64,000 bases of DNA, from positions 1,015,836 to 1,079,835 of the forward strand of contig NZ_GL982513.1 of the NCBI RefSeq assembly GCF_000220255.1. The letters are read 5' to 3'. Below, one piece after another: positions 3,112-59,711 of the stretch. This DNA comes from Prevotella pallens ATCC 700821 (lineage in GTDB: Bacteria; Bacteroidota; Bacteroidia; Bacteroidales; Bacteroidaceae). The notes under the pieces are model-generated. The model ran no database searches. It was not told the DNA's origin and saw nothing but the letters and a program-made list of their open reading frames with translations. Each line of letters starts with the position of its first letter. Position 1 is the first letter of the stretch. The position numbers and the translations under genes were made by a program.

Positions 3112-3183
3112 ATATTGTTTTTCCTTTCTTTTTCTTTAGAAGCGTTGCTTTATGCAACTCTTTATTTGTAATTTCGTGGTTTG

Positions 3184-6100
3184 TTAAAAACCGCCTAAAT
3201 CGTAGTATTCGTCATCGAAATCGTAATCGAGTGGTTGTTGTTTCTGTGATTCCTTCTTCTTTTTATCTGTTGTTTTAACATCATCATCGAAATATATTAC
3301 AGTACTATCTGTATTCTTTTTCTTTGGTTGTTCTTTCTTTTCAGAAGGCTGTTGAGGCTTCTGAGCATTCTTGCTATTCTGTAGTTTCTTCTTATCAGAA
3401 GTAGTTTCACTATTTTTTGTTTTTACTGTTTTCTGTTTATTTGAAGGCGCACCAACAGTTGTTTGAGGTGAAGAAGTTTCTGAATCTAACGGAATCTCCA
3501 TAACACTATTGTCTATTGTAACAACATTCTGACCAATCTGTTCTATAGTTTTTTGTTCTTTCTTAGGCTCAATTGGCTTTGTTTCTGTTTTTTTGTTAGA
3601 TGTTCCTTCTATCGGTATCACCATTTCTGTATTGTTGATGGTGTTTCCTGTTTTTTTCTTTTTAGAAGAATCTTCTATTGGAACAACTATTTCTGTATTG
3701 TTCACATTGTTCTTCGAATTCTTCTTATTCGTAGTTTCTTCTACGGGAATAATAACTTCGTTGTTATTTGTATTACTCTTTGGTTCTTCCTTTTTAGCAG
3801 GTTCTTCTGCAGGAACAACTATTTCTGTTGGAGCAACTTTTTTGTTTTCTGTTTTTTTCTCATCTTCAATAGGAATGGTCATTCCATTATCTATAGGCTC
3901 TAATCCTTGTTCACGAGCATTAAGGTCGGTTTCTGTTGGATTTTTACTTTCTATTTCTTCTTGCAAATCACGTTCTTTCTCTCGTGGTGTTGCCACTTCA
4001 GCAGGCTCAGACAGTAGATAGTGCTTCGTTACTTGCAATGGAGCAAAGTGTTTAGCATAGAAGTCTTCGTAATCTTTATAGCTAAACGATGTTCCTATGA
4101 GTTGTAAGTTCTTGTTGCTAATAATAATAGCCTTTGTGTCTTTGCTTAACTGAGCTATTACATTCTTATTATTGAAAAGTTGGCGTGCATATTGATATGC
4201 TTCATCGAAACTTCTGAAGCCCGACAAAGCCATTTGGTGTAAACCTTCTATATTTTCAATTTCTATTTCGAAGTTGCGTACATAGAAGCTTGTAAAATTA
4301 AAGCGTGCCATCTCAAAAAGCAGTTTATTCTCTGATAAAGAGTCAGGATTATACACCAACAGGAACTTGAAATCTATGTCCCTATCTGGTGAGAACTTCA
4401 CTTGTTTGATACTGTCGCTATCGTTCAGCACATTGGTACGATAGTTCCAAACATCACCAAGGTCGAACTTGCTATTGTGTATTTTCTTTCCAGCTTTTAC
4501 ACCATTCACAATCATTCCTGCCATTTCGCTGATACGACTTTGTGGATATTTCTCTACAACGGTCTTCATTTCGTCTATGCAACCATTGATGTTACCTTGG
4601 TTAAGTTTGTTTAATCCATCTATAAACAAGAATTTATCGCGATTTGCTCCCATTGGGAAACGTTCATCGGAAATGCGTTTATTGGCAGCAACCTCGCTGA
4701 AACGATTGTTCTTAAATGCCTCGTAAGTAGATGCATATAGTGAATCTTCAATATGTTCTCCAAACTTTGCGTTCTCTTTAAAGTAGGGGTCAGTAAGCAA
4801 CGCTGTCCATTGACTTTTTGGATATTTCGTTTTAAGTTTGTCTATATAGCTATTAGCCAAAGTAGTTTCGCCTTTACGCATATACAAAAGATACAGATGA
4901 TAATACACATCGTCCATTTGTTCGTAGTCAGGATAGTTATCGCTTACACGGCGTAAGGCTTTTTCGGCTAAGCGAAGATTGTCTAACCTATCTTTGAAAA
5001 TGACCCCTGAATGGTGTAAGCCAGCCTCTAAAATTTTATTGCTTGCTGCTAACTGTTCTGGTGTAAATGGTATTTGTGCTAAATAGTATGCACGTTTGTG
5101 TGGATCGTTTTGTGCTGAATCTCGTTTATTACTAATTGAGTCTAACTTTGCCTCTTCTTTTGCAATAGAGTCTCGTTGAGCATTGGAGAGTTCATTTGTG
5201 TTGGTTATGCCTCCAACTACAGTTTTGTTAATACGCTGCCAGTTGTCTATGTTTTCACGTTTACCCCACAATTGTTGGAACGTTGCCTTACCTTGCTGCA
5301 CAGCTATGGGATTGTAGAAATACCATGTAGCATCTTGTTGTTGTCTGTTGGGGCGAGTTGGACGTTGAAGCGGATTGTCGTTGTCTGCATTAATGCCTCC
5401 ATTCTGTGCCATTTGCTGTGTAGCTTCTTGTTCAGCTTGTCGGTTTCGCTCTTCTTTTTCCTTCTTCTTTAGTGCATTTATTACTCTATCAATTGCTGCA
5501 AAACGTTCTGATTCTGGACATTTAGCTAGATATTGCAACGAATCTTGTAGCTGCACAGCCTCTGTATGTGGTGTTAGTTCATCAAGAACCTTTGTACGCT
5601 CCGACAATTGTTCGTAATCTTTACGATCTTTATCTAGTAGACCAAGTGCTTCGTTATAGCAACGACGCGCATCGCTAAACTTTTCCTTTTCCCAATACAA
5701 GTTACCTAATCGCAAAAGTAGTACACCTTTCTCTATTCCGCTGCGTGTAGATTTTTTGTATCCTTGTTCGTAGGCAGCAATAGCATTTATTGTATCTTTG
5801 TTGGTAAGATAAATATTTCCCATTGCATAGAATACCTGGTCTAGATAATCTTTATTCTTGTCAGATGCAACCATACGTTTCAGGCGGTTCACCATTTGTT
5901 TGGTTTGTCCAGCTGCCATCACTTCGGTTGCAGCAACACGTGCATTAAACTCTAACTCATAGGGAGGATTTGAACGAATTACGTGTTGGAAAGCATTGTA
6001 AGCAGCATCTTTATTACCAAGTGCAGCCTGAATTTGTCCCATAAGATACCATTCGCGTGCCTTTTGTTTGCGTCGCATCTCCTGTTTAATAACTCTACGT

Positions 6101-7283: not shown

Positions 7284-8543
7284 CTATTCTTGTTCTATTT
7301 CTTCTATTGAGAAACCTACCTTTCGTAAATCGTCCCAGAAATGTGGATACGATTTTGATACTACTTCTGGATTATTTATGAAGAGTTTACCCAGTTTAAT
7401 GCTTAAAGGCGCAAAGGTCATTGCCATGCGATGGTCTTTATAAGTGTCTATTATTATGGGTTTAGAAACCTCGCAGCGTTCACCATTCCACGTCATTTCA
7501 GAATCATTAGAATCGTGTAATACATAACCTAACTTTGCCATTTCGTTTTTCATAGCCTCTATACGGTCTGTCTCTTTTAGTTTAAGACTGCTTAGCCCCG
7601 TAAACTTAAAGGGAATATTCATTATGGGGCAGAGGGCTATTAGTGTCTGTGCTAAGTCTGGTTGATTTTTAAAATCGTATTCCAAACGAGACAATATTTG
7701 TGGCTTTCTAGTGATGGTTACATCTGTAAGTTCGTCCATCTCTTTATCTGCAAAAATGGTTTTTACACCTAATAACGAAAAGATATATTTTATAGCAGAG
7801 TCGCCCTGACGAGAACCGTTCTTAAGTCCTGTAAAGCGAATGTATGACTTGCTATCATTCATCAGCGTGAGTATGGAATACCAATAACTAGCTGCTGTCC
7901 AATCGTTTTCTATTGTGTAGTTGCGTTCTGTGTAGTGCTTAGGGTAGATAGTTATTGTATCTACATCTGTCCACTCTGCATCTGCACCATATTCGTGCAT
8001 TAAATTCAGTGTGAGATCGATGTATGGTCTAGAAATAATATTACCCACAAGTTTTAGTTTTAAACCTTTTTCGAATGTAGGTCCTATCATTAACAATGCT
8101 GAAATATATTGCGAGCTAACGTTGCCTGCTATTTCTACGTATCCACCTTTTAGTTCTTTGCCTCTGATGCGTATTGGTGGAAATCCCTCTTCTTCTATGT
8201 ATTGAATATCCGCCCCAAGCGAACGGAGAGCATCTACCAATATTTTTATAGGTCGTTGTTTCATTCGTGCAGTTCCTGTAAGAATATGTTCGCCTTTACT
8301 TACAGCTAGATAGGCGGTCATAAAGCGCATTGCAGTGCCTGCAGCTTTGATGTCTATCTCATAAGGATTATTCTTAAAAGCGCGTTCTATAACTACGGTG
8401 TCATCACAGGTAGACAGGTTGTTGGGTACAATTTTTCCACCTGCAAGCGCATGAATAATTAGTGCACGATTGCTAATACTCTTCGATGCAGGGAGTTGTA
8501 TAGTCTCTTCTATATGTGATGGGGGTGTTATTTTGTATTGCAT
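7284..8543 (-). CDS. aroA: 3-phosphoshikimate 1-carboxyvinyltransferase (EPSP synthase)
   Basis: AroA transfers the enolpyruvyl group of PEP to shikimate-3-phosphate, the sixth step of the shikimate pathway. Seen: LPASKSISNRALI near the N-terminus (substrate-binding Lys/Ser), AAGTAMRFMTAYLA, the LKETDRIEAM motif and YKDHRMAM near the C-terminus. The length of 419 aa is normal. It is the first gene of the minus-strand group that continues into porW-porX-tsaE. A TATTTTTG box (8608-8615 on the minus strand) lies about 65 bp upstream, without a clear -33 partner. Confidence 0.95.
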   Translation of the reverse strand: MQYKITPPSHIEETIQLPASKSISNRALIIHALAGGKIVPNNLSTCDDTVVIERAFKNNPYEIDIKAAGTAMRFMTAYLAVSKGEHILTGTARMKQRPIKILVDALRSLGADIQYIEEEGFPPIRIRGKELKGGYVEIAGNVSSQYISALLMIGPTFEKGLKLKLVGNIISRPYIDLTLNLMHEYGADAEWTDVDTITIYPKHYTERNYTIENDWTAASYWYSILTLMNDSKSYIRFTGLKNGSRQGDSAIKYIFSLLGVKTIFADKEMDELTDVTITRKPQILSRLEYDFKNQPDLAQTLIALCPIMNIPFKFTGLSSLKLKETDRIEAMKNEMAKLGYVLHDSNDSEMTWNGERCEVSKPIIIDTYKDHRMAMTFAPLSIKLGKLFINNPEVVSKSYPHFWDDLRKVGFSIEEIEQE

Positions 8544-8655
8544 ATTGTTAATCCATTGGATTTTTAAGACCCTTTTCTATTTGTTCTAAAGTCTTCTTTT
8601 TGCTATACAAAAATACAAATAAAAGTTGGGAATGTTAGAAAAATACTCTTAAAAG

Positions 8656-8687
8656 TTTGCTAATCTCTTAAAAAGTAATTAATTTTG
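8656..8687 (+). promoter_or_regulatory. Bacteroidota promoter of tRNA-Pro
   Basis: TTTG (8656-8659), 20 bp, TAATTTTG (8680-8687). It matches the Bacteroidota sigma-A consensus exactly and ends 16 bp before the tRNA. Confidence 0.85.
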
Positions 8688-8703
8688 CACCGTTAATTCT
8701 AAA

Positions 8704-8778
8704 CGGGATGTAGTTCAGTAGGTTTAGAATGCTGGTCTGGGGGACCAGTGGTCGCTGGTTCGAGTCCAGTCATCCCGA
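8704..8778 (+). tRNA. tRNA-Pro (anticodon GGG)
   Basis: Acceptor stem CGGGATG pairs with CATCCCG, followed by discriminator A. The anticodon stem CTGGT/ACCAG closes the loop CTGGGGG, giving anticodon GGG. The T-arm reads CTGGTTCGAGTCCAG. CCA is not encoded. It has a perfect upstream promoter and its own terminator, so it is a single-gene unit. Confidence 0.96.
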
Positions 8779-8782
8779 CAGC

Positions 8783-8826
8783 AAAGAGTGTAAAGGTGAA
8801 TGGAAAACCTTTGCACTCTTTTTTTA
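8783..8826 (+). terminator. terminator after tRNA-Pro
   Basis: AAAGAGTGTAAAGGT pairs with ACCTTTGCACTCTTT around a 9-nt loop and runs into a T tract. Confidence 0.9.
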
Positions 8827-9252
8827 GCGAGATCTGGTTAAGGAGAACGCAGATTAAGCCTCTATAGAAAATAGGAGAGGATATTCTAAACAGCATCTAC
8901 CGTTTATTCACAAATCAGGCGAAATATCTCAGATGGATATAAAAATAATCAGATTTTAGCTACTCTTGTTTTAGATATCTGTCACGCTCGTTTCAGATAT
9001 CTGTCAGTTGTGTCTCAGATATCTGTCAGTTGCGAATTAGATATCATAACAAATAATAATCTTTGTGGTCTTATATAAAGATAGCAGAAAGCTATTGATT
9101 CTGATGGGGAATATAAGTCCCTTTATTTAAGTTATTATATGAAAACTTTCAATAGCTATAAAAAAGAGTTATTAGCTTTCTTTGTTAAAAAAATAAAATA
9201 TTTTGGAAAACAAATATTCTTTGCGTCTTTTCTTTAAAAGAAGAGCATTCTC
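8827..9252. other. intergenic region with array C
   Basis: Apart from the 22-bp repeat array, I see only a loose inverted repeat (AGCTATTGA near 9091 with TCAATAGCT near 9167). No gene is supported. Confidence 0.6.
8951..9060. repeat. array C: 22-bp units, core AGATATCTGTC
   Basis: AGATATC starts recur at 8973, 8995, 9017 and 9039, an exact 22-bp period. The first three read AGATATCTGTCA. The last decays after AGATATC. A degenerate unit starting AGATTTTAGC occurs one period upstream, at 8951. The core AGATATCT is a perfect palindrome. The same core and period are used by array D at 35270. Confidence 0.9.
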
Positions 9253-9519
9253 TTAGTACTTATTATTTTTAGATTCAGTATTGCTGTCAACGAAATCAAC
9301 GTATTCACCCTCATCGTCGCCAATTATCTTTCTGTCGCGTTTAGATTTTGGGCGATGATCTACGATGGTGTTACCGTTAATATTTATTCCTTCCTCTGTA
9401 TTTTCATGGCGAAATCTGCGTTGAGTACGTGTTATAACTTTATAGAACTTGAAAGCTATAAAGAATAGAATGACAAAGAATGCAATGAATATAAGAAAGA
9501 TAAATTTTAAGAGAATCAT
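9253..9519 (-). CDS. small membrane protein, DUF4834-like
   Basis: This 88-residue protein has one strongly hydrophobic N-terminal helix (residues 2-27), a basic stretch TRTQRRFRHE and an acidic, Asp/Ser/Asn-rich tail. The design resembles DUF4834, a Bacteroidota family often found by phospholipid synthesis genes. It lies 46 bp downstream of pssA, at the end of the psd-pssA group. The function is unknown. The family assignment is from memory of its layout, not from a search. Confidence 0.65.
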   Translation of the reverse strand: MILLKFIFLIFIAFFVILFFIAFKFYKVITRTQRRFRHENTEEGININGNTIVDHRPKSKRDRKIIGDDEGEYVDFVDSNTESKNNKY

Positions 9520-9565
9520 AATTCCTTATTTATAGGTCTTACTTGGAGTTAAAACCCATTGATTT

Positions 9566-10261
9566 TTATTTCTTTATAATGTACGATATAATTACATACC
9601 ACGCTACAATGATGGCAAACCCTGTAATACCAAATATGGCAATTAGAGGAATACAAGTGAGCAAGAATATGTATTTAATCTGATTCTTTTTCCATCCCCA
9701 TTCCTTAAATTTAAGTGCGAACATAGGAATTTCGGAAACCATTAACCATGAGCTTATAAAGATTCCTACGATTATGAAAATGCACATAAGGGGAGAGGAA
9801 TCTATTCTTTTACCCAGTCCGATAAGAAGTGAACCCCAAAAGAGAGCATTAGCAGGAGTTGGTAATCCAATAAATCCGAGAGTCTGTCGTTCATCAAGAT
9901 TGAATTTTGCTAATCGTAGTGCAGAGAATGCAGCCATAATATATGCAATAAAAGGTAGAATGCCACGTAATGATTCAAGAAGGGAAGGATAAGACATTAT
10001 ACCCAGTTTGCTAAACAAAATTGTAGATGGAGCAACACCAAACGTTACTATATCAGCAAGAGAATCAAGCTCTTTCCCTATTGGAGAACTTACTTTTAAT
10101 AATCGTGCAGACATACCATCGAAGAAGTCAAATACAGCTCCTATGATAATCCATGTAAACGATATTTCAATCTTGCCACTGAAAGCGTATGCAATGGCTA
10201 TACAACCTGATATAAGATTGCAACAAGTTATAGTGTTGGGAATGTGCTTCTTAATAGCCAT
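9566..10261 (-). CDS. pssA: CDP-diacylglycerol-serine O-phosphatidyltransferase
   Basis: PssA makes phosphatidylserine from CDP-diacylglycerol and serine in the inner membrane. Seen: the CDP-alcohol phosphotransferase signature spread over FDFFDGMSAR...GKELDSLADIVTFG, with the expected Asp-Gly-Ala/Ser-Arg and paired Asp residues, and several hydrophobic helices. I use the ATG at 10261 (MAIKKHIPN); the reading frame is open upstream, but 10267 is a TTG. It follows psd by 20 bp, so psd and pssA, consecutive steps of phosphatidylethanolamine synthesis, share a transcript. Confidence 0.93.
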   Translation of the reverse strand: MAIKKHIPNTITCCNLISGCIAIAYAFSGKIEISFTWIIIGAVFDFFDGMSARLLKVSSPIGKELDSLADIVTFGVAPSTILFSKLGIMSYPSLLESLRGILPFIAYIMAAFSALRLAKFNLDERQTLGFIGLPTPANALFWGSLLIGLGKRIDSSPLMCIFIIVGIFISSWLMVSEIPMFALKFKEWGWKKNQIKYIFLLTCIPLIAIFGITGFAIIVAWYVIISYIIKK

Positions 10262-10281
10262 ATTCAAAGTATATTTGTTAA

Positions 10282-10974
10282 TTAGCTAAGTCTTGCTATC
10301 ACTGTTTGGTCTCCTACAGTAGATTGTCCCATTTTTACACAAATCTCAGAGTCTATTGGTAAGAAGACATCAACGCGGCTACCTAATTTTATGAAGCCTA
10401 AATGTTCATCAATAAAACATTCTTCTTTCTCTTTCGCATAGGTTACAATACGCCGTGCAACAGCACCTGCTATCTGTCGACATAGAACATCTCTTCCATC
10501 AGGAGTTGTAATGATGATATCGGCATGTTCGTTTTCTTCACTTGCCTTTGGTAACCATGCTTTATGATAATTTCCATTGAAGTGTTTCACAAACTTAACA
10601 GTTCCATCTACAGGGAACCAATTGGCATGTACATTCCAAAGGCTCATAAATATAGATACCATAATTCGTCGTTCATGAAAATATTTATTCTCATCAACTT
10701 CTTCTATAACAACTATATGCCCATCGGCTGGAGCTACAACAATCTTTTCCGTATCTTCTCCATCAAAATAGCGGATAGGACAACGATAGAAGTTTAAAAC
10801 TATACAATAAATAGTTCCAAAGATGGCTATAAATATCCAAAAAGGTATTTTAGAGGCTATACCAAACCATAATAAAAGAGCTATCAGTCCAATGCCGATA
10901 CCTCCATATAGAAGCTGGTCTGTGCCTTCGTGATGTAATCTTATTTTCTTGAGTTTCCTCTTAAATCTTCCCAT
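10282..10974 (-). CDS. psd: phosphatidylserine decarboxylase proenzyme
   Basis: Psd decarboxylates phosphatidylserine to phosphatidylethanolamine. Seen: two N-terminal membrane helices (about residues 20-60), [19 protein letters not shown], and near the C-terminus [13 protein letters not shown] with the LGS self-cleavage site (Gly198-Ser199) that yields the pyruvoyl cofactor. The length of 230 aa is that of the short Psd class. It has a perfect minus-strand promoter (11003-11034), divergent from dnaE. Confidence 0.94.
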
Positions 10975-11002
10975 TCTGTGGTAGTATGGTTTTTAACGAA
11001 TG

Positions 11003-11034
11003 CAAAGATAATTATTTTTTATTACTCTCACAAA
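11003..11034 (-). promoter_or_regulatory. promoter of psd-pssA operon
   Basis: Read on the minus strand: TTTG (11034-11031), 20 bp, TATCTTTG (11010-11003), 29 bp before the psd start codon. Confidence 0.85.
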
Positions 11035-11050
11035 TTTTTACTCTTATTCT

Positions 11051-11081
11051 TTTGGTATCTCGTGTATAAGTAGTATCTTTG
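11051..11081 (+). promoter_or_regulatory. promoter of dnaE
   Basis: TTTG (11051-11054), 19 bp, TATCTTTG (11074-11081), 37 bp before the dnaE start. It is back-to-back with the psd promoter. Confidence 0.85.
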
Positions 11082-11118
11082 AAATCCCAAAAAGAATAGC
11101 AGTATATAATAATAAACA

Positions 11119-14100
11119 ATGGAAGATTTCGTACATTTACACGTTCATACATATTATTCGGTGCTTGACGGACAGTCAAAAATACCTAATCTTGTTGATA
11201 AGGCAATTAAAAATGGTATGAAGGGTATGGCTATTACCGATCATGGTGTAATGTTCGGAATAAAAGAATTCTCAGATTACTGTGCTAATATCAATAAGAA
11301 GCGGAAGAAGAATGGAGAAGAACCTTTTAAACCTATCTTCGGCTGCGAAATGTATGTAGCGCGAAGACGAAAAGAGAATAAGGTAAAGGATATGCACGAT
11401 AATTCTGGTTACCACCTTATAGTGTTAGCAAAGAATTATCAAGGATATAAAAACCTTATAAAATTAGTATCGCGCTCTTGGGTAGATGGCTTTTATTATC
11501 GCCCACGTACTGACCGTGTTGATTTAGAGAAATACCATGAAGGGCTAATAGTATGCTCTGCTTGCTTAGCTGGTGAGATTCCACGTAATATCTTAAAGGG
11601 AGATATGAATGCAGCGCGCGAGACTGTGGAATGGTATAAAAAAGTTTTCGGTGATGATTTTTATCTAGAGTTACAACGCCATGAAGTAAAGGACCCAACG
11701 CTAGTTGCCAATCGAGATGCTTTTCCATTACAACAGAAGGTTAATAGGGTATTGTTGCAATTTGCAAAAGAATATAATATTAAATATGTGTGTACTAACG
11801 ATTGTCACTTTGAAGATAAGGAGACTGCAGAAGCACACGACCACCTTCTTTGTCTTGCAACACAAGAAAGTTTGGACTCGCCTACACGAATGCGTTATTC
11901 GAAACAAGAATGGTTTAAAACACGCGAGGAGATGAACGATGTGTTTGCTGATGTACCAGAAGCACTGATCAACACTTTGGAGATTCTCAATAAGGTAGAG
12001 ATGTATAGTATAGATAATGGACCTATTATGCCTGTCTTTCCAATTCCAGAGAGCTTTGGAACAGAAGAAGAATGGCGTAAAAAGTTCACGGAACAGCAAC
12101 TTTACGAAGAGTTTACTACAGATGAGAATGACGAGAATCCATTATCTCCAGAGGACGGACAAGCAGTAATAAAACGTTTAGGAGGTTATAAAGAGATTTA
12201 TCGTATTAAGTTTGAGGCTGACTATTTATCTAAATTAGCACACGATGGGGCTAAGAAACTCTATGGCGATCCTATCCCAGAAGATGTTCAGAAAGCCATA
12301 ACGTTCGAGTTGCACGTTATGAAAACGATGGGTTTTCCAGGTTACTTTCTTATAGTTCAAGACTTTATTAATGCCGCACGCAATGAACTTGGGGTGATGG
12401 TTGGACCTGGACGTGGCTCTGCTGCTGGATCGGTTGTTGCTTATTGTTTAGGAATAACACGTATAGACCCTTTGAAATATGATTTGCTTTTCGAACGTTT
12501 CTTAAACCCCGACCGTGTAAACCTTCCTGATATTGATACCGACTTCGACGATGATGGACGTGGAAGAGTGTTACAATGGGTAACAGATAAATATGGTGAA
12601 GAGAACTGTGCACACATTATTACTTATGGTACGATGGCAACCAAAAACTCTATTAAAGATGTTGCACGTGTAGAAGGATTACCTATAGAATTAGCAAACC
12701 GACTTTGTAAGGCTATTCCAGAACGTCTCCCAGATGGCTTGAAGATGAATTTAAACAATGCCATTGCTTGCACTCCATTATTGCAAGAAGCTGAAGTAAG
12801 TGAAGATGCGCGCGAACGAAATACTATTAAGTATGCTAAAATGTTAGAAGGTACGGTGCGCACCACTGGTATTCATGCGTGTGGATTCATTATCTGTCGC
12901 GATCCTATTAGCGATTGGGTGCCGGTTTCTACTGCCACTGACCCAGATTTCCCAGAAAAGAAGGTTCCTGTAACGCAGTATGATGGACATGTCATAGAAT
13001 CAACAGGACTTATTAAGATGGACTTCCTTGGTTTGAAAACCCTATCAGAAATAAAGGAAGCGTGTAAAGTTATAAAGCAAACCACAGGCGATATAATAGA
13101 TATTGACAATATTCCTATTGATGATGAACTCACCTATCGGCTTTATCAGCGTGGGCAAACTGTAGGAACGTTCCAGTTTGAATCGGCAGGAATGCAGAAA
13201 TATCTGCGCGAATTGCATCCAACTGTATTCGAAGACCTTATTGCAATGAATGCGCTCTATCGCCCAGGACCGATGGATTATATTCCTGACTTTATTAAGC
13301 GTAAGAATGATCCTTCGTTGGTAAAGTACGATATTCCGTGCATGGAAAAGTATTTAAAAGATACGTATGGCATTACGGTTTATCAGGAGCAAGTGATGTT
13401 GCTTAGTCGTCAGCTTGCTAACTTTACGCGTGGCGAAAGCGATGCTTTGCGTAAGGCGATGGGAAAAAAGAAGAAAGCCATTGTAGACCAAATGAAACCT
13501 AAGTTCCTTGCGCAAGGAAAAGCCAATGGGCACGACCCCGAAGTGTTGGAAAAGATATGGGGCGACTGGGAAAAGTTTGCCAGTTATGCTTTTAACAAGT
13601 CGCATGCTACGTGTTATTCGTGGGTGGCTTACCAAACTGCTTATTTAAAAGCACACTATCCAGCACAATTTATGGCAGCTTTAATGACACGCCGCTTCAG
13701 TCAGATTACCGAAATAACAAAGCTGATGGAAGAGTGTAAGGCTCTTAAAATATTAACGCTTTGTCCTGATGTAAATGAAAGTCAGATAGGGTTCAGCGTG
13801 AATAAAAAGGGAGGCATACGTTTTGGTCTTTCAGCTATAAAGGGAATGGGAACGGGTGCAGCTATGGCTATTGTGAGCGAAAGAGATAAGAATGGACCGT
13901 ATAAAAACATATTCGACTTTGTTGAACGTATAGACCTTAGCAATGTAAACCGGAAGGCTTTTGAAAACTTAGCAAAGAGTGGTAGCTTTGATGGATTAGG
14001 CTTACAGCGCGAAGAATACTTTGGTGTAAATGCAAAAGGTGTGTGTTTTCTCGACTCGTTAATTAAGTATGGACAATTGTTCCAACAAGAAAAGGCACAA

Positions 14101-23279: not shown

Positions 23280-23604
23280 ATTTCTGTTTGTGTATTATTG
23301 TCTCTTCTTATTTTATCTACTGTTTATAGACAACTCCTTAAATAATATTCTTTTATAAAAACCGAAATAATAAAACGAGTTTCCGTACTGCAAAGGTAAT
23401 ACTTTTACCTCTATTATATTTAAATCTACTCATACATTTAACAATAATTATGCTTAGTGTGTCGAATTTATTATATTCCAGATAATTAAATCCTATACTA
23501 ATGGAAGTGAAGAGTATTTGTATTGTTGTTCGAAGACTTTTATATGAATAAGATACCTTAATATATATAAGCCGCTTTAATATATTTAATATGGATGAAA
23601 TACT
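23280..23604. other. intergenic region upstream of RND operon
   Basis: It contains a minus-strand TACCTTTG box (23398-23391) as a candidate -7 element for the pump operon, inside a small inverted repeat GGTAAtactTTTACC. No -33 TTTG is at the right distance, and no regulator gene is adjacent. The rest is AT-rich without recognisable structure. Confidence 0.5.
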
Positions 23605-25029
23605 CTACATCAAGCCCATTTCAGATGCCTTTTTCTTCAGTAGTTCCATTAGTGGCTCGCGTTCGTTAGGTACACTGTTGTCTAAGACAGAATCTTTTAA
23701 TGTTTTCTTTAATTCTCCAACCTCACGACACGGTTTCAAATTAAATAAAGTCATAATCTCGTTTCCATCAATGCATGGTTGTAACAACCGTTTATAATCG
23801 CGCTCTTTAAGGTCGTTTAGTTTCTCGCGAACAATTTTAAAATTATCAAGAAAACGCTGTTTACGTGCAGCATTTTTACTTGTAATATCGGCCTCGCAAA
23901 GTGTCATTAAGTCGTCAATGTCATCGCCAGCATCGTTCATTAATCGTCTAACAGCAGAGTCTGTAACCTCTTCATCTGCTATAATAATAGGTCGCATGTG
24001 CAGGTCTACCAACTTGCGCACGTATTTCATCTTGGCGTCCATTGGGAATTTCAGACGTTTAAAGATTGGCGTTATCATCTTTGCACCTATTATATTATGA
24101 TTATGGAAGGTCCAGCCTGCAATAGGATCCCATCGTTTGCTTTTAGGCTTACCTATGTCATGGAACAGCGCAGCCCATCGCAACCAAATATTATTGTTTT
24201 TTTGCGATATATTATCGAGGACTTCTAATGTGTGATAGAAATTATTTTTATGTGCTCTACCGTTACGAGTTTCTACTATATCCAATGCTACGAGTTCGGG
24301 TAAAATAATCTGAAGCAATCCACACCGATACAAATCTATAAAACCTTTGCTCGGTGTAGGTGTTGCCATTATTTTGTTTAGTTCGTCGGCAATACGCTCC
24401 CCACTTACGATTTTTATGCGTTCGGCATTACGTTCTAATGCATCGAATGTTTCATCTTCTATGAAAAAATTTAGCTGTGTAGCAAATCTCACACAACGCA
24501 TCATACGCAGTGGATCATCTGAAAAAGTAATATCAGGATCTAAAGGTGTACGAATAATGCCGTCCCAAAGATCGTCTATGCCACCGAATGGGTCTACCAA
24601 TTCGCCGAAATGGGATTTGTTCAAACATACTGCCATTGCGTTAATAGTGAAATCACGTCGGTTTTGGTCGTCTTCCAGTGTACCGTCTTCCACGATAGGC
24701 TTACGGCTGTCGTGGCTGTAGCTCTCTTTGCGTGCACCGACAAACTCCACTTCCATACCGCCAAATTTCACTTGTGCTGTGCCAAAGTTGTGGAAAACCG
24801 ATATATGCGCCCGCTTTCCAAATGTTTTTTTTAGTTCGTTGGCAACGCTGATACCGCTCCCCACCACCACGACATCAATGTCGTTAGAGGGTCGTTCAAG
24901 AAATAAGTCACGGACATAACCACCCACAACGTAACATTCCACGCCGAGTTTGTCAGCAGCATCAGAAATTTTATGAAATATATCCTTGTCTATCAGCTTT
25001 GCCAATTCGGCATCAGTCAAGTCTCGCAT
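23605..25029 (-). CDS. cca: tRNA nucleotidyltransferase (CCA-adding type) with HD domain
   Basis: This is a class II poly(A) polymerase/CCA-type nucleotidyltransferase. It probably adds or repairs the tRNA 3-prime CCA, which is needed here because tRNA-Pro does not encode it. Seen: GGYVRDLFLERPSNDIDVVV with the catalytic Asp pair, RRDFTINAMAV, FATQLNFFIEDETFDAL, and an HD domain with LRWAALFHDIGKP. I start at the ATG at 25029 (MRDLTDAELAKL); an in-frame alternative at 25056 lies inside the promoter-like TAACTTTG region. The upstream region holds the left copy of a 47-bp direct repeat. Confidence 0.92.
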   Translation of the reverse strand: MRDLTDAELAKLIDKDIFHKISDAADKLGVECYVVGGYVRDLFLERPSNDIDVVVVGSGISVANELKKTFGKRAHISVFHNFGTAQVKFGGMEVEFVGARKESYSHDSRKPIVEDGTLEDDQNRRDFTINAMAVCLNKSHFGELVDPFGGIDDLWDGIIRTPLDPDITFSDDPLRMMRCVRFATQLNFFIEDETFDALERNAERIKIVSGERIADELNKIMATPTPSKGFIDLYRCGLLQIILPELVALDIVETRNGRAHKNNFYHTLEVLDNISQKNNNIWLRWAALFHDIGKPKSKRWDPIAGWTFHNHNIIGAKMITPIFKRLKFPMDAKMKYVRKLVDLHMRPIIIADEEVTDSAVRRLMNDAGDDIDDLMTLCEADITSKNAARKQRFLDNFKIVREKLNDLKERDYKRLLQPCIDGNEIMTLFNLKPCREVGELKKTLKDSVLDNSVPNEREPLMELLKKKASEMGLM

Positions 25030-25059
25030 ACTACATTTAACTATTTGATAATGCAAAGT

Positions 25060-25106
25060 TACACATTTTTAGCTTAGCATTTGCACAAACCAAAGCATAT
25101 TTAATT
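25060..25106. repeat. 47-bp direct repeat, left copy
   Basis: It begins TACACATTTTTAGCTTAGCA and ends CATATTTAATT, and is identical base for base to 26642-26688. It lies immediately upstream of the cca start, overlapping the candidate cca promoter. Flanking bases differ on both sides, so the repeat is exactly 47 bp. Confidence 0.93.
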
Positions 25107-25206
25107 ATTAGCGTTGTTTTCACAATTTGACAAAGGTAGTATCAATATCCTATTTTGTTTGAGAAGAACTTTTTGTCTGAAACTTGATACCTTAGAAAGT
25201 AAGGAA

Positions 25207-25249
25207 AGAACCCTGTCAGAACTCTAATACAGAGTTTGATAGGGCTCTT
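25207..25249 (-). terminator. terminator after STAS-like gene
   Basis: On the minus strand, AGAGCCCTATCA pairs with TGACAGGGTTCT (wobbles allowed), with an inner ACTCT/AGAGT stem, followed by a T-rich run. It separates the cassette from cca. Confidence 0.7.
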
Positions 25250-25289
25250 TTATGCATAGCTGTTATAATCTGTAATTTTGAGGAATACT

Positions 25290-25601
25290 TTATTTTAACT
25301 CTGATACACTCTCTGGATTTTGGTCATAACGTAATAAGTAATCTTTTAATCTATCAGCTTGGTGTCTTGTTATTTTAGAGAACATAATATGGCTTTTTAA
25401 AGTTTCCATATCATATTCATCAATAATCTTTCCAATAGACACATTTAAGAATACAGAAGGTAAAGAACTGACCCCTTCCATATTTGCAACAACCTTATCA
25501 TCAGATGCAATTGCATCAACAATTGTATTATAAAGGATTTTACCAGCATCTGGTAAGCTATTGTGAGAAGCTAAAATCTCTTTTATATTTATTGTACACA
25601 T
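25290..25601 (-). CDS. STAS-like protein (DUF4325 type)
   Basis: This 103-residue protein has the look of the STAS-like DUF4325 family: a preceding helix (PDAGKILYNTIVDAI), strand KVVANMEG, then SLPSVFLNVSIGKIIDEY, which corresponds to the conserved serine-containing loop and helix. A second strand-helix follows. Such proteins are typically encoded right after a GHKL-fold ATPase, as here (24-bp gap). By analogy with SpoIIAA/SpoIIAB they may form a kinase/anti-sigma and antagonist pair; that is inference. The output of this pair is unknown. It lies inside the segment bracketed by a 47-bp direct repeat. Confidence 0.75.
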   Translation of the reverse strand: MCTINIKEILASHNSLPDAGKILYNTIVDAIASDDKVVANMEGVSSLPSVFLNVSIGKIIDEYDMETLKSHIMFSKITRHQADRLKDYLLRYDQNPESVSELK

Positions 25602-25625
25602 AACAGTCTTAAATTAGTTAAACAT

Positions 25626-26495
25626 CTAAAATTCAAACGAATCAAGAACTTCTTCGTCTTCCATTTGAGAAAGATTTACCTCAAAATAGATTAATGTACC
25701 TGGAAAATTAAAGTTAATATCGTAGACCTTTCTTTCGCCTTTTATATCCACTAACAAAGCTTTTCCACTACATAACCTTCCAATATCTGCACACGAGAGT
25801 ATATTATCAAGTCCTTTGCCCTTATTTCTGTCAGTCGACTTGACGGTAAAATTATACTCAGCAGCTTTAAACAAAGCTTCTTTATCGCAGCTAATAGATG
25901 GGATATAATTCTTCACTGACTGGATAATTCCAATTCCAAAATCGGCTATTGCAGCATGCAAAATATGCTTATCCTCATCGTACATGATCAATGAAAATGC
26001 ATTATCATTTGCAGAAGCATGGTCAAACACATTATAAAAAGCCTCTGTCAAACTTAAATGGATAACACTTAAATCTTTATTCTTGAAGTAAGTTTTCTTG
26101 AAATATGCTTCTACATTATTTGCATACAGGTCTTTTTCTTGGTCTTTAATCCTCCATAAATTAAAAACATGAGTGGATTGATTGGCATCAACATGATTCT
26201 TTTGCCCTAACCAATATTCCGAAAATTGTAGGTCATTGTAAATATAATTATCAACGGCTTGATTATTATGTGATAAAAAAGCCTTCCATCCTTGGTCGGA
26301 AAGGAATTGGATCAGGCATGCTAAGGTTACTAAATGCATTGGTGTCAATCCTTTTACAGATATTGAATCTGAAAATGAAATGTAAACAGAAACATTATTT
26401 CCTACAGCATTATATTTTTGGTAAGAGTTTACAATTAGCTCTAACCATTTAGTCTTATCGAGTGTAGTGAAAATAATGTTATTTTCTTGAGACAT
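25626..26495 (-). CDS. GHKL-fold ATPase / anti-sigma-kinase-like protein
   Basis: Seen: a C-terminal HATPase domain with N-box SLTEAFYNVFDHA, G1 box IADFGIGI and G2 box NKGKGLDNIL. There is no phospho-acceptor His domain and no membrane helix. The N-terminal 120 residues (KGLTPMHLVTLACLIQFLSD) have a STAS-like strand-helix rhythm, so the protein may join a STAS-like and an ATPase module (inference). I use the ATG at 26495 (289 aa). The frame is open to a TTG at 26513, but that lies in a TATCTTTG promoter box. It pairs with the STAS-like gene downstream. I recognise no specific named system. Confidence 0.8.
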   Translation of the reverse strand: MSQENNIIFTTLDKTKWLELIVNSYQKYNAVGNNVSVYISFSDSISVKGLTPMHLVTLACLIQFLSDQGWKAFLSHNNQAVDNYIYNDLQFSEYWLGQKNHVDANQSTHVFNLWRIKDQEKDLYANNVEAYFKKTYFKNKDLSVIHLSLTEAFYNVFDHASANDNAFSLIMYDEDKHILHAAIADFGIGIIQSVKNYIPSISCDKEALFKAAEYNFTVKSTDRNKGKGLDNILSCADIGRLCSGKALLVDIKGERKVYDINFNFPGTLIYFEVNLSQMEDEEVLDSFEF

Positions 26496-26510
26496 AAAGA
26501 TACGTTTTTG

Positions 26511-26518
26511 CAAAGATA
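26511..26518 (-). promoter_or_regulatory. -7 box of GHKL/STAS cassette
   Basis: TATCTTTG on the minus strand, 16 bp before the chosen ATG. No TTTG at the usual distance, so a weak or regulated promoter. It decides the start in favour of 26495. Confidence 0.6.
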
Positions 26519-26603
26519 ATAATAATAATCAATTTTCTCTCATTTAATTCAAAATAATATTCCTTTTCTCTGTAATATTAGCTTTGTCTATATAAAAAGA
26601 CAT

Positions 26604-26644
26604 CGTACAAAGTCTTTTAACGTTGCAGAACAGATAGTTTATAC
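26604..26644. repeat. imperfect repeat R1
   Basis: TACAAAGTCTTTTAACGTTG and the following CAGAACAGATAGTTTAT match the segment at 29174-29210 at 30 of 37 positions by hand alignment. The two copies flank the outer-membrane barrel gene in the same orientation. Confidence 0.6.
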
Positions 26645-26688
26645 ACATTTTTAGCTTAGCATTTGCACAAACCAAAGCATATTTAATT
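26642..26688. repeat. 47-bp direct repeat, right copy
   Basis: Identical to 25060-25106. It lies between the ATPase gene and the barrel gene, and its end (AATT) forms the base of that gene's terminator stem. The two copies are 1582 bp apart start to start. Confidence 0.93.
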
Positions 26689-26714
26689 CCAAAAGAAACA
26701 TTTCTTTCGGAATT
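26685..26714 (-). terminator. terminator after outer-membrane barrel gene
   Basis: AATTCC, then AAAGAAA, loop TG, TTTCTTT, then GGAATT gives a nearly perfect 14-bp stem on the minus strand. It is not followed by a long T tract. Confidence 0.6.
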
Positions 26715-26756
26715 GCATAAAACTGCCAATACTGTAGTTTTCTTTCCTTTTTATTC

Positions 26757-29063
26757 CTACAAACGGTTGATTTCGCTGTTGCCTGCACCCTTTCCTTTAT
26801 ACTTGCTACGTGCTGTATTGAAACTGTAACGAAGGGTTAGGGTGAAAGATTGTGTATCGCCTTTCAACCATTTGGTAGCTTCAATATCTGGTGTTTTCAC
26901 CATCCAACGTTCTCGCGAGGTGTGGAATATGTCCTCTATACTTAATGCCACCATCAAGCCGAAAGGGAAACTCTTGATTAATGATGCTGATGTCGTGAAG
27001 TTATGTTTATAGTAAAGCAGTCCGTCGTTGCCTGCTGTACATCCCGAAAAGTTCAATGTGGCAGTGTAAGACTTTGGAAATGAAAATAAATTCTTGAAAG
27101 AATACTTTGCTATTGGTTTTGTATACTTCATACCATTGTATTCAAGCTGTTGGAAATAAGCCTGTAATGTTACCGACGGTTTCCATATTCCGAATGTTGG
27201 AGCATAAGATGCCATAAGGTTGAAACTTTGGTAGTCAATGTTTATAAATGAATTTAATCGAACCGGTTTGTCTTCTAATACTTGTTCGTAAAACGATATT
27301 GCGTTTTTATAAATAATGTAGTTTGAACTCAAGACCAAGTCTTTATAGCGCAGAAGTAACCCCAAATCGTAGATATTTGCAGGCTGCAAGGACGGATTTC
27401 CACCCTCATAGGCATAGCGATTGTTATAAGCTCGGCTGGCTCTTAACTGCATATACGACGGACGTGCAATGATGGAGCGGAGCGATAAAGTAGTTTCGAA
27501 ACTGCTCTTAGAATAGTTTAAAGAAAGCGTTGGCAATAAGTTGCCGTACTTTTTCGATTGTGCATCTTGTTTAACACCATTCAATCTATAATCGAAAGCT
27601 ACCCACTCGTACCGTAAGCCAACATTGGTACTCCAATGTTTCCACGCTTTACTGTACTCACTGAATAGTGCCAACGAGTTTTGTTTTGCCTGATTGCCAT
27701 TCGATGTCAAGGAAGAAGTGTGGTCAGGGTCGGTTAATTCAAAGGCTTGTGTATTGTTGGTGTAAGTGTATTCCTCGCCAAATGTAAACTTACCGATAGG
27801 CATTGATTTTGATAACATTACGTTTTCGGCAAACATATCTGTCTTTCGATAGCTCTTGCTACCAACTGTTATTGTTTTGTTGTGTTCTATTTCGGTTGTA
27901 TTCAAATCGGTTGTAAAGTCGATACGAGTATAAGTGGTATTCGTTTCCATCTCCCATTTGTTCTTGAAAGTCTTCAGAAGATAGGCTGTTGCATTATGTC
28001 TTCCACCATAATTGTTTTGGAAATAATAGCTGTTAAATGTATGATTGCCTTCCAAGTCGGACGATGTTAGCGTAGAATAAAGGTTAAAGGGGATTTTTAT
28101 GGTGCGAGAATATATATACTTCAGTCCTGCATAAAAGCTGTTATCGAGCGATACATAGTTTGTACCAGCCTGCGAAACAAGAAACCTACCCCTGCTATTT
28201 TGTTTGTTTGAATTATGCGATACAATCGTTGTCCCTTTATAATTAAACGCAACATCGTTGGTTTGCTCCTCGTCTGATTTGTTTTCTTGGTAATAAACAG
28301 AGCCGAAAATATCAAATGCCCCCTTGCGATAGTTGAGCTTGAGAAAGTCGTTTTGACCAAAATTATGGTTTACTTTTCCGTTCCATTGCATTGTCCCCGA
28401 CAAACCATCGCCTTGTGTACGAATTGTTGTAATGCGTATCACTGCTCCCACATTTGACGGGTAACGGCTACCAGGGTTCATTATTACCTGCACGTTTCTT
28501 ATTTGATTGCCTTTTAACCCTACTAGTTCCGTATTACTTGTTATTTTCCTTCCGTCAAGATAAACAAGCGGTTTACCTTTCCCTAATACGGTGATTGCAT
28601 TGTCCGAAGCACTAAGGAAAGGCAGCTGGTTGAGTACGTCGGAGAGTGAAGGCAGTTTCGCTAACGCACTGCCTTGTATGGTAGACGTAAGTCCTCCTGC
28701 ATTCATTGTATAAAGACGCCTGTTGCCTTTCACCACAACTTCAGCCATTTCGTTACTGCTTGGCATTAATATAATGGTGCCTGCATCGGCAGAATGGCAG
28801 TCTGAGTATTTTGTTTCGTAGCCCATACACGAAACTCTCAAAATGCCATCAATACTTTTTGTTTCAATGGTAAATACTCCATCAGCTTTGCTTGCTGCAC
28901 CGCTAATAAACGAAGAGTCGGCTTTTGAAAGCAGACAAACGTTCGCCAATTCAAGGGGCGTACCTTGTGTGTCTACAACTTTTCCTTTAATACTTTGCGC
29001 CATCATATCTAATGATGTAAAGAAAAACAATAGTAGTAGAGTTGTTTGGATATTTTTCCTCAT
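26757..29063 (-). CDS. TonB-dependent-receptor-like outer-membrane barrel protein
   Basis: This is an outer-membrane protein with an N-terminal signal peptide ending near MMAQS, a carboxypeptidase-regulatory-like beta domain (IKGKVVDTQGTPLELANVCL), and a plug-like domain (LAKLPSLSDVLNQLPFLS, GKPLVYLDGRKI). A long C-terminal barrel rich in aromatic strands follows. The C-terminal half resembles the Bacteroidota outer-membrane barrel family often listed as OMP_b-brl_3. I use the ATG at 29063 (768 aa) because a perfect promoter (29122-29091) would lie inside a longer version. It has no SusD partner, so it is not a classical glycan-uptake pair; the ligand is unknown. Imperfect repeats lie on both sides. 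Confidence 0.85.
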   Translation of the reverse strand: MRKNIQTTLLLLFFFTSLDMMAQSIKGKVVDTQGTPLELANVCLLSKADSSFISGAASKADGVFTIETKSIDGILRVSCMGYETKYSDCHSADAGTIILMPSSNEMAEVVVKGNRRLYTMNAGGLTSTIQGSALAKLPSLSDVLNQLPFLSASDNAITVLGKGKPLVYLDGRKITSNTELVGLKGNQIRNVQVIMNPGSRYPSNVGAVIRITTIRTQGDGLSGTMQWNGKVNHNFGQNDFLKLNYRKGAFDIFGSVYYQENKSDEEQTNDVAFNYKGTTIVSHNSNKQNSRGRFLVSQAGTNYVSLDNSFYAGLKYIYSRTIKIPFNLYSTLTSSDLEGNHTFNSYYFQNNYGGRHNATAYLLKTFKNKWEMETNTTYTRIDFTTDLNTTEIEHNKTITVGSKSYRKTDMFAENVMLSKSMPIGKFTFGEEYTYTNNTQAFELTDPDHTSSLTSNGNQAKQNSLALFSEYSKAWKHWSTNVGLRYEWVAFDYRLNGVKQDAQSKKYGNLLPTLSLNYSKSSFETTLSLRSIIARPSYMQLRASRAYNNRYAYEGGNPSLQPANIYDLGLLLRYKDLVLSSNYIIYKNAISFYEQVLEDKPVRLNSFINIDYQSFNLMASYAPTFGIWKPSVTLQAYFQQLEYNGMKYTKPIAKYSFKNLFSFPKSYTATLNFSGCTAGNDGLLYYKHNFTTSASLIKSFPFGLMVALSIEDIFHTSRERWMVKTPDIEATKWLKGDTQSFTLTLRYSFNTARSKYKGKGAGNSEINRL

Positions 29064-29090
29064 CTTATAAGTTGCGTTAGTTGTTAGTTG

Positions 29091-29122
29091 CAAAAGTAAT
29101 TATATTTCATTAAAATGCCAAA
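29091..29122 (-). promoter_or_regulatory. promoter of outer-membrane barrel gene
   Basis: On the minus strand: TTTG (29122-29119), 20 bp, TACTTTTG (29098-29091), 28 bp before the ATG at 29063. Confidence 0.85.
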
Positions 29123-29730
29123 TAAATAACAAATAATTTACTATTAAACCGTAATGTATTAAAAAAAAGCACTTTACAATGTTTCTTAACATCGCAGAAT
29201 AGATAGTTTCTGGATTCAAAAGCGGAGTATTTGCGTTTTTGGCAGTTCGTATTTATTGTTCTAAAATCCAGTAAATGACGCGATAAATTTAACACAACTG
29301 AAAAGGGTGAAATAGAGAAAAAGAAAGCGATAAAAAAGGAATGAATTTATAAAATAGATTGTTTTACTTTGTGAAAGTATGGCTCTTACCGACCAAAAGC
29401 GGCACTTTTGCACTATAAAACAGCCGCTTTCACAAGCTATTTAGACCATATAGATGTTGAAATTGTGTGCAAAATAAGGCGAAAGACCCTTGTTTTGCCA
29501 AACAAACAAGCTGTATTTGTTGCACAGCACTACCCAATAAGTGTGCAACAGCTTGCTTTTCAGAGGTTTAAAGTAGCACGTAAAAAGAGCAAGAATTTGA
29601 AGGAACTTTTGTTGTAGTGCAGAAAAGTGCCCGTAATTTCGGTGCTGAGACGAGTAGATTTAACGAAAAAGTTGTTCATTTATTGTTTATTAGCAAATGA
29701 TAAATGAACGCTAAAATCTCCTCGTTTTAT
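29123..29730. other. intergenic region with repeat R2 and nested hairpins
   Basis: Seen: imperfect repeat R2 (29174-29210), then nested inverted repeats (GTGAAAG 29371 with CTTTCAC 29427; AAAGCGGC 29396 with GCCGCTTT 29423), and GTTGCACA with TGTGCAAC near 29520-29555. A 69-codon frame overlaps the hairpins but has no family features. It looks like a degraded dispersed repeat rather than a gene. Confidence 0.5.
29174..29210. repeat. imperfect repeat R2
   Basis: TACAATGTTTCTTAACATCG followed by CAGAATAGATAGTTTCT, about 81 % identical to R1 at 26604. It lies upstream of the barrel gene promoter. Confidence 0.6.
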
Positions 29731-30513
29731 TTAATAGGAAGCCGAACATGGTATTCCCATAGCCTTCACACGTTCGCAAATAGCATCAAGCTCACTTTTT
29801 GTTGCCTTCTTAAGATTTGGATCTGGTGTTTCACGATCAATAGTGTAAATCATTACTTCGCGTGGAGCGATGGTCTTTACAGCATCAAGCCATGGAACTA
29901 TGAAGTCTTCTTTCACGTTGTTAACATCATCTCCGTCGGTTGAAATCCCCTTTAAGAACATAGTCTGCACAATAAGTCTCCCATTAAAGGTTTTCATTTC
30001 TTCAACAATTTTACTAACTTGATAAGTTGGGTAAGTAGGTCGGTCCACCTTATTTATATATTTATTATCAATAGTATCAAGTTTTAGAATGTTGTTATCA
30101 ACCTTCATTAAGGCGTTATGCACCTTTGTTCGGTGAATGAAAGTTGCGTTGCTGAGCACAGATACCTTTGCTTTTGGACAATATTGGTTACGTAGTCGAA
30201 TTGTATCATCAATTATTTCTGCAAACTGTGGGTTAGCAGTCGGTTCCCCATTTCCTGCAAAAGTAAGAACGTCTGGTTGTTCATTTGTTTCTTTCATTGT
30301 TTTTAGCTTAGCTTCAAGCTTAGCTGCAACCTCTTCACGAGTAGGGAAAGGCGACTTTGTTCGATAGTCTTTATTGAATCCACATTCACAATAAATGCAA
30401 TCGAATGTACATACCTTTCCATCATTCGGCATAAGATTAATACCAAGCGATATACCAAGTCGACGACTTTTCACCGGACCGAAAATAGGCGAATCGTATA
30501 TAATAGTGCTCAT
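29731..30513 (-). CDS. radical SAM protein
   Basis: Seen: the 4Fe-4S motif CTFDCIYC (Cys35, Cys39, Cys42), preceded by GISLGINLMPNDGKV. It also has the SAM-binding strand LTFAGNGEPTANPQF and the strand series SVLSNATF, LKLDTID and RLIVQTMF of the partial TIM barrel. The length of 260 aa shows no extra cluster domain. The GNGEPT motif and length resemble the COG0731-like group of radical SAM proteins, whose bacterial roles are poorly defined. It is a single gene, convergent with nothing close. Function cannot be assigned. Confidence 0.88.
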   Translation of the reverse strand: MSTIIYDSPIFGPVKSRRLGISLGINLMPNDGKVCTFDCIYCECGFNKDYRTKSPFPTREEVAAKLEAKLKTMKETNEQPDVLTFAGNGEPTANPQFAEIIDDTIRLRNQYCPKAKVSVLSNATFIHRTKVHNALMKVDNNILKLDTIDNKYINKVDRPTYPTYQVSKIVEEMKTFNGRLIVQTMFLKGISTDGDDVNNVKEDFIVPWLDAVKTIAPREVMIYTIDRETPDPNLKKATKSELDAICERVKAMGIPCSASY

Positions 30514-55010: not shown

Positions 55011-55182
55011 CAAAAAACGAAGCGATAAATAGCAAAATAATGTTCTAATTAGAATTAAAGAGCGAAATAGTTGATATGTGCTATGTTAATTGATCCAATT
55101 ATGGTTTGCATAGCGTGTTTTTATATCAAACCGAATTATATCTTCTGCTAAAACCACTGCAAACACTTATCTAATTGCAAAA

Positions 55183-59655: not shown

Positions 59656-59690
59656 GAGGGTATATCGAATTGAGTCATCGATATACCCTC
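59656..59690 (-). terminator. terminator after fumarase gene
   Basis: GAGGGTATATCGA pairs perfectly with TCGATATACCCTC around a 9-nt loop. On the minus strand a short TTTC follows. Confidence 0.75.
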
Positions 59691-59711
59691 ACAGTTAATA
59701 ATTTAGTTTAT

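Follow-up and report, generated by a model that had tools for sequence, protein, structure and literature searches.

A GHKL/STAS-like gene pair upstream of cca in Prevotella pallens, probably inserted with long target duplication

How does a small gene unit that encodes no recombinase enter a bacterial chromosome? The question is raised by a cassette in a 64,000-nt stretch of the Prevotella pallens ATCC 700821 genome (contig NZ_GL982513.1, forward-strand positions 1,015,836 to 1,079,835; this whole stretch is hereafter called the window), in which genes for a GHKL ATPase and a small STAS-like protein of the DUF4325 family lie between cca and a neighbour referred to here as the barrel gene, bracketed by two copies of a 47-bp direct repeat. 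The movement of such recombinase-free units between bacterial chromosomes is still poorly explained. In our reading the horizontally acquired GHKL/DUF4325 pair probably reached this intergenic site through insertion with long target duplication, an unusual mode by which at least one further genome seems to have received relatives of the pair.

The two repeat copies (25060–25106 and 26642–26688) are identical at 47 of 47 bases, as a sequence-only reading of the window had described, and under an independent-base model about 1e-18 exact 47-bp repeats would be expected within the window by chance. With exact 16-base seeds, the only other direct repeat of at least 24 nt in the window is a tandem array of 22-bp units (core GCTTATAAGCTTTT, 55154–55329). 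A search of the 40 contigs of the same genome with 25040–25110 returned the two copies and one 26-bp match of 92% identity whose overlap with the 47-mer is confined to its first 8 bases; the look for the 47-mer elsewhere that the earlier reading had called for thus gave no third copy. The left copy had been said to abut the start of cca, which needs correction: its near edge lies 30 bp upstream of the cca ATG (25029). By eye, a –7-like box (TAACTTTG) straddles the edge of the left copy and is lacking from the right copy, which is therefore not simply a second cca promoter. Both neighbours stay whole: upstream cca promoter sequence is preserved in the left copy, and the right copy preserves the last part of the 3′ hairpin of the barrel gene (hairpin z –5.5).

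To what does the repeat correspond in genomes without the cassette? When 398 genus genomes were searched with the cca-promoter region (25010–25110), 40 matched at E ≤ 0.001. Besides the P. pallens genome itself, matches over 95–97 of the 101 bases occur at one place each in G108 (97%), G017 (96%) and G361 (94%), and the remaining matches are short (at most 57 query bases, E 2e-5 or worse). In G108 (locus L067), window positions 23598–25106 correspond to 8292–9800 and 26642–29715 to 9754–12827; the two flank alignments overlap in exactly the 47-mer, and the site is therefore empty and uninterrupted. G361 matches on the left side and, on the right, over the initial 140 bp of flank, with the barrel gene missing; in G017 (L066) a single 47-mer is present, and an unrelated element some 0.5 kb long comes after it. 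A tblastn search of these three loci with the GHKL protein gave no match at E ≤ 1e-3. On these alignments the cassette is an insertion at the barrel gene/cca intergenic site. The earlier reading, which had proposed an insertion with the repeat as target sequence and had suggested looking for empty sites in relatives, is upheld here: the site is fully empty in G108 and partly so in G361 and G017, not all relatives carry the filled site, and the 47-mer, found at the same place upstream of cca in all three, is native cca-promoter DNA. One position of the 47-mer is T in G108, G361 and G017 and C in both window copies, so that both copies seem to be derived from the lineage's own target, the pattern of a target duplication.

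Two side observations may be added. The element in G017 (L066, about 2995–3536) has inverted ends ACGTGAGTTCGG and a 6-bp TATTTA duplication and sits at the outer edge of the 47-mer, as judged by eye; and G003:C17:323524-324931 holds an array of 19 sites, spaced by about 77 bp, each with a 28-bp match to the cca-promoter query.

Could the filled state instead be ancestral, with the relatives having lost the cassette? The cassette may be lost by recombination between the 47-bp copies, and precise excision would give exactly the site of G108. An ancestral filled state is nevertheless extremely unlikely in our view, because three related genomes lack the cassette at the site, because, at E 6e-40 or better, only 6 of the 398 sampled genomes of the genus have a GHKL homologue (the P. 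pallens genome among them; at E ≤ 0.001 the count is 9 of 398), the other five of the six being at different loci, and because the origin of the repeat would be left unexplained.

A second empty site comes from a Barnesiella metagenome-assembled genome (MAG). On its contig L158, a 37-bp repeat (36 of 37 bases identical) brackets a GHKL/STAS-like pair located in the 3′ end of a gene judged from its sequence to encode a HAD-like hydrolase. Through the left copy the HAD-like frame stays open until a new stop; the right copy contains the stop codon of the STAS-like gene and continues into the sequence that comes after the 37-mer in the empty allele. The latter is found on a second contig of the same MAG (L174), which has one 37-mer, contiguous flanks that are 97.7% and 97.9% identical to those of L158, and no GHKL match in 8 kb (tblastn); a co-binned strain is its likely source. 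The counterpart expected of a long target duplication, a related empty site with a single repeat copy, is thus present for the window (fully in G108, partly in G361 and G017) and for Barnesiella (L174), and the availability of two empty sites makes the insertion mechanism testable.

How common the bracketing is was judged from 12 non-redundant loci with GHKL and STAS-like genes: the window, P. multiformis DSM 16608 (G148), P. histicola JCM 15637 (G403), G099, Segatella baroniae B14 (G209), the degenerate G010, L156 to L160 and the prophage contig L162. Duplicates were removed (L163, of L162; L154, L155 and L161, of G148, G403 and G209), and weak GHKL matches in G284, G175 and G188 (E 1.6e-4 to 7.9e-4) were left out, the first two (L083 and L084) having no tblastn match to either protein and G188 being dropped for its weak score alone. 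Direct repeats were sought in flanks of up to 1200 bp or 900 bp. A long bracketing repeat is present at 3 of the 12 loci, namely the window (47 bp), L158 (37 bp) and G099 (74 bp). The G099 repeat (L081; 83.8% identity, 84% when rounded; E 9e-19) is a terminator-like hairpin, with hairpin sequence at either end of the insert, and occurs at two places only in the G099 genome at E ≤ 0.001, with 14 of 15 candidates scored. At L160 a 68-bp repeat of 87% identity brackets the pair, and the locus was counted as ambiguous because this repeat sits in remnants of RhuM-like genes. A control over 403,852 bases from 23 partly overlapping loci yielded three direct repeats of at least 30 nt and at least 84% identity at a spacing of 0.8–2.5 kb, all three of which bracket a GHKL/STAS pair (window, L158 and L160), G099 falling just under the limit; since the control loci were partly chosen for the pair, this indicates rarity elsewhere and not a rate.

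The neighbouring genes differ among the 11 loci for which neighbouring open reading frames (ORFs) were listed (all but L159), and the G+C content of the pair is lower than that of its surroundings in all 11 loci measured out of 12; in the window it is 30.9% for the cassette, 41.4% for cca, 40.0% for the barrel gene and 37.3% overall. Low G+C content together with the patchy distribution supports horizontal movement of the pair. Scans of genome contigs and viral contigs with single proteins found no relative, and an alignment query did find relatives. With the GHKL protein, a plasmid scan gave two distant matches (Hymenobacter, 28%) and a comparison with phages gave none at E ≤ 1e-5.

In an insertion with long target duplication, the target would be opened with a long stagger, either through a pair of nicks separated by tens of bases or through some equivalent intermediate of repair or replication. 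Joining of a linear fragment that holds the gene pair to the protruding ends, followed by gap filling, would then create the duplication. The neighbours would be little harmed, because the duplication preserves the cca promoter and the barrel-gene hairpin in the window, nearly all of the end of the HAD-like gene in Barnesiella, and hairpin sequence at either end in G099. Insertions that spare both neighbours may be selected, and hence be the ones observed.

The earlier reading had also entertained the repeat as an attachment-like site and had expected the cassette to move in trans or by homologous recombination. A perfect direct repeat around a compact cargo with no recombinase inside would suit a cis-mobilisable cassette moved in trans by a site-specific recombinase that uses the repeat as its attachment site, and the S. 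baroniae pair adjoins a gene that looks, by sequence, like a tyrosine recombinase. The repeats of the window, L158 and G099 are, however, unrelated, with at most 6 bp in common and lengths of 47, 37 and 74 bp; a 34-base part of the 47-mer has 0 exact matches in viral contigs, 25040–25106 has no match in plasmids at E ≤ 0.01, and the genome holds no third copy. We therefore regard a cis-mobilisable cassette with the repeat as its attachment site as very unlikely and do not retain the attachment-like site; some machinery may still move the cassette in trans, but hardly a site-specific integrase recognising the repeat. An integrase element with att sites was rejected for want of a common core among the three repeats.

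The ends of the inserts are equally variable. Their 5′ ends lie 146, 85 and 101 bp from the GHKL ATG and their 3′ ends lie +183, –6 and +52 bp from the STAS stop codon in the window, L158 and G099, respectively, and the three inserts have neither a common end sequence nor a terminal inverted repeat longer than 7 bp. The terminal inverted repeats and short fixed target duplication typical of insertion sequences (IS) and transposons are not seen, and a composite transposon or IS was rejected since no such repeats or inverted ends are found at both sides of the cassette. A carrier IS or miniature inverted-repeat transposable element (MITE), with the repeat as its target-site duplication, could be suspected from the degenerate MITE that seems to form the STAS-side tail of the window cassette. 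We give this a close to negligible probability, as the MITE stops 26 bp inside the cassette end (by eye), the junctions have no terminal inverted repeats, and 37–74 bp is longer than the 4–10 bp duplications of IS1 and IS5 given in PMC3031569.

The GHKL/DUF4325 pair might itself be a minimal mobile element that inserts its own coding DNA with long, variable duplications and needs no end sequence, which we think quite unlikely; that the pair, or a partner recruited in trans, would perform the target-opening reaction appears just as doubtful. If true, it would amount to transposition by a route in which no recognised recombinase takes part.

The surroundings of the cassette bear on a further alternative. 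Outside a tract of about 24.7–29.6 kb in which identity to G108 is 0.93–1.00, identity is mostly 0.70–0.90, with single bins at 0.52–0.96. To judge from these identities, the tract, barrel gene included, is probably a recent interspecies recombination import, and homologous exchange is a process that acted at the window locus, before or after the cassette was inserted. Transforming DNA with one homologous and one illegitimate end, a route named homology-facilitated illegitimate recombination, could have brought in the cassette, with a crossover in the shared region leaving the 47-bp duplication; the position of the cassette inside the tract favours this. It would nonetheless require a donor in which the cassette already interrupted the cca promoter, both copies carry the base of the window lineage and not that of G108, G361 and G017, and identity between the Barnesiella contigs is even either side of the insert (0.96–0.99 in 300-bp steps over 1.8 kb each side), so that the tract pattern of the window is not seen there over that distance. 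On balance we hold recombination of transforming DNA to be an unlikely source of the duplication.

Several observations count against insertion with long target duplication. Lying inside a probable import, the window cassette may have arrived already inserted. No long bracketing repeat is present in 8 of the 12 homologous loci, and a ninth (L160) is ambiguous; the eight include L159, with just about 200 bp of downstream flank, and P. histicola (L080), where a 24-nt repeat of 88% identity (E 0.001) around a Fur-like gene and the cassette was read as two promoters. The search for further empty sites covered the loci of G099, P. histicola, P. multiformis, G010 and the Barnesiella MAG. The G099 repeat has no known empty site, no near relative of G099 being present in the genomes searched; P. 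multiformis and G010 likewise gave no near relative, and for P. histicola the divergence of the nearest genomes between fur and ileS is too great for the insert ends to be located. The 33 other genomes of the Barnesiella MAG's genus (34 with itself) include no near relative (best long match 71%), and with both alleles coming from one MAG, a co-binned strain and an assembly fault are indistinguishable. A prophage pair (L162/L187), compared with relatives L188 and L189 that lack the pair, shows no long duplication, the insert in L187 being located between the stop codon of the upstream gene and a downstream terminator-like stretch; among insertions with a known empty site, two of three therefore have a long duplication and one, the prophage, does not. 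Lastly, the stagger-and-fill mechanism is proposed here and not observed.

As a side observation at the P. histicola locus, the Fur-like gene (L080 9425–9814) encodes 129 amino acids compared with 143 in G170 and G334, apparently owing to a frameshift close to its end and some 150 bp ahead of the GHKL gene.

Insertion with long target duplication has been associated with restriction-modification (RM) genes; a study by Furuta et al. 2010 (NAR 38:2428) reportedly describes it for such genes. The expression itself is in the title of Nobusato et al. 2000 (Gene 259:99) as cited in PMC1643837, and published accounts describe a long-target-duplication pattern for RM genes in H. pylori (PMC1643837) and duplications that are 'in the order of 100 bp' (PMC3874152) or 'long and variable' (PMC3031569). 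As far as these papers show, long target duplications have so far been tied to RM genes, chiefly in Helicobacter, and the present case resembles theirs in that a unit without transposase or integrase is flanked by long, variable direct target duplications detected by genome comparison (PMC3874152, PMC3031569 and PMC1643837). The duplications are long, variable and made of local target (37, 47 and 74 bp, the 47-mer and the 37-mer being native in the empty alleles), and comparison of the ORFs and ends of the unit reveals no transposase or integrase and no inverted terminal repeats. Unlike RM insertions, the cargo here is a GHKL/DUF4325 pair, the hosts are Bacteroidales, and one pair is bracketed at three unrelated loci, two of them with an empty site, by shorter repeats. 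Scans of the pair with Pfam, NCBIfam and PADLOC found no RM family; as its cargo is not RM, the cassette is not a strict member of the insertion-with-long-target-duplication class. The signature itself is known; judging by the open-access literature searched, the novelty lies in the cargo, in the hosts and in its recurrence with a single gene pair. An RM-like signature in an unrelated two-gene Bacteroidales unit, at three loci with two empty sites, one of them a near-identical allele, suggests that this may be a route for defence-like or selfish modules at large.

The features of the window locus are collected in Table 1. As the earlier reading had it, one unit lies between the copies, consisting of the GHKL gene, the STAS-like gene and a hairpin that is likely a terminator, all on the minus strand; no recombinase, transposase or integrase ORF is present in the cassette and no sigma factor gene in the two-gene unit. 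The GHKL frame can be read from ATG at 26495 to a stop codon at 25626, and a longer frame with a TTG start begins at 26513. Rfam over 24900–26900 gave a single match (E 0.22), far under its gathering score. In the window cassette, the end of the STAS-like gene (its final codons and stop codon) and the terminator hairpin seem, by sequence similarity and by eye, to come from the MITE-like repeat. This repeat has ends like AGGGTGTGTCAAAAC and an internal terminator-like hairpin, and by eye it also occurs at about 5967–6150 of L115 and from about 5965 of L116; L115 (NZ_OY725917.1) is labelled a Bacteroides finegoldii plasmid, yet it has topA and argS and looks like a piece of chromosome.

Table 1 Features of the cassette locus (window coordinates)
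Feature	Position	Strand	Remarks
Tract similar to G108	24700–29580		Identity 0.93–1.00 per 100-bp bin (one bin 0.87), cassette omitted
Left copy of 47-bp direct repeat	25060–25106		Native DNA, upstream part of cca promoter; one copy at the same place in G108, G017 and G361
Inserted cassette, 1535 bp	25107–26641		Absent at the empty site of G108, G361 and G017
Probable degenerate MITE	25133–25317		Resembles repeats between genes in two records of Bacteroides finegoldii and in a phage contig; ends and MITE nature by eye
Hairpin behind STAS-like gene, likely terminator	25195–25260	–	Fold –22.8 kcal/mol, z –4.7
STAS-like protein, 103 amino acids, DUF4325	25290–25601	–	PF14213 E 2.9e-9, above curated cut-off; phrog_9989 E 1.3e-8
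GHKL ATPase, 289 amino acids from ATG	25626–26495	–	HATPase_c_2 E 0.0024, below its cut-off; GHKL domain fold like SpoIIAB
Right copy of 47-bp direct repeat	26642–26688		Adjoins 3′ hairpin of barrel gene; right flank enters copy unbroken in G108

What might the pair do? The AlphaFold model of the GHKL protein (pLDDT 83.5) has a SpoIIAB-type GHKL fold as predicted: the best Foldseek match is SpoIIAB (1l0o; E 4.6e-6, TM 0.68 on the target and 0.36 on the roughly twofold longer query), and the five best PDB fold matches are all SpoIIAB entries (1l0o, 1til, 1tid, 1thn and 1th8). A sequence search of the PDB with the GHKL profile gave 0 matches, and a PDB fold search with the STAS/DUF4325 model gave none at E ≤ 0.001; the viral fold library returned a 233-amino-acid protein (E 1.5e-9). 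Residues E151, N155, H159, D185, G187, G189, G226 and G228 are invariant in 10 of 10 GHKL homologues, and position Ser49 of the STAS-like partner is conserved, being Ser in 9 of 10 and Thr in L160. Like the partner-switching pairs SpoIIAB/SpoIIAA and RsbW/RsbV, the cassette encodes a GHKL ATPase domain beside a small STAS-like protein. Unlike in SpoIIAB and RsbW, motif positions place an extra N-terminal part of about 135 amino acids in the window ATPase, and the DUF4325 model without a PDB match and the lack of a sigma factor in the window unit also set the cassette apart from both known pairs.

Both proteins match phage protein families over most of their length (phrog_3364, E 5e-23; phrog_9989, E 1.3e-8), and two viral contigs from IMG/VR (L162 and L163) carry the pair, with a GHKL protein 47% identical. 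According to PMC7924643, Francisella phage KIRK has Fhv_0046 (293 amino acids) beside the DUF4325 gene Fhv_0047 (112 amino acids). These prophage pairs (L162, L163 and KIRK) resemble the cassette in being two adjacent genes of the same sizes with the second STAS-like/DUF4325, Fhv_0046 being likened by size and position; they differ from it in lying within phages, the window copy having chromosomal genes on either side and containing no phage gene. For neither protein did PADLOC-DB 2.0.0 give a family match at E values of up to 0.1, and no known anti-phage system was recognised. Among the open-access papers listed for STAS-like or GHKL proteins in defence or prophages, none appears, from its title and abstract opening, to deal with this pair. 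The predicted SpoIIAB-like ATPase/kinase and its STAS-like partner would perhaps act as a switch, in a phage-defence or other selfish module; we give about even odds to the pair being a partner-switch module that moves horizontally and perhaps serves in phage defence. Either way, the pair offers a lead to the function of the little-studied DUF4325 family.

Elsewhere in the window, 35044–59653 (about 24.6 kb) has no alignment in 100 kb of G108 and 59653–64000 aligns inverted, which points to an island or a rearrangement. In the collinear part of the alignment, other gaps of more than 400 bp lie at 8.8–9.3, 15.2–16.4 and 29.7–30.6 kb of the window, none with such a direct repeat in the window. 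The neighbourhood of the cassette is itself variable: the barrel gene is missing in G361, and a gene that looks radical-SAM-like by sequence (29731–30513) is missing in G108, its region aligning in G361.

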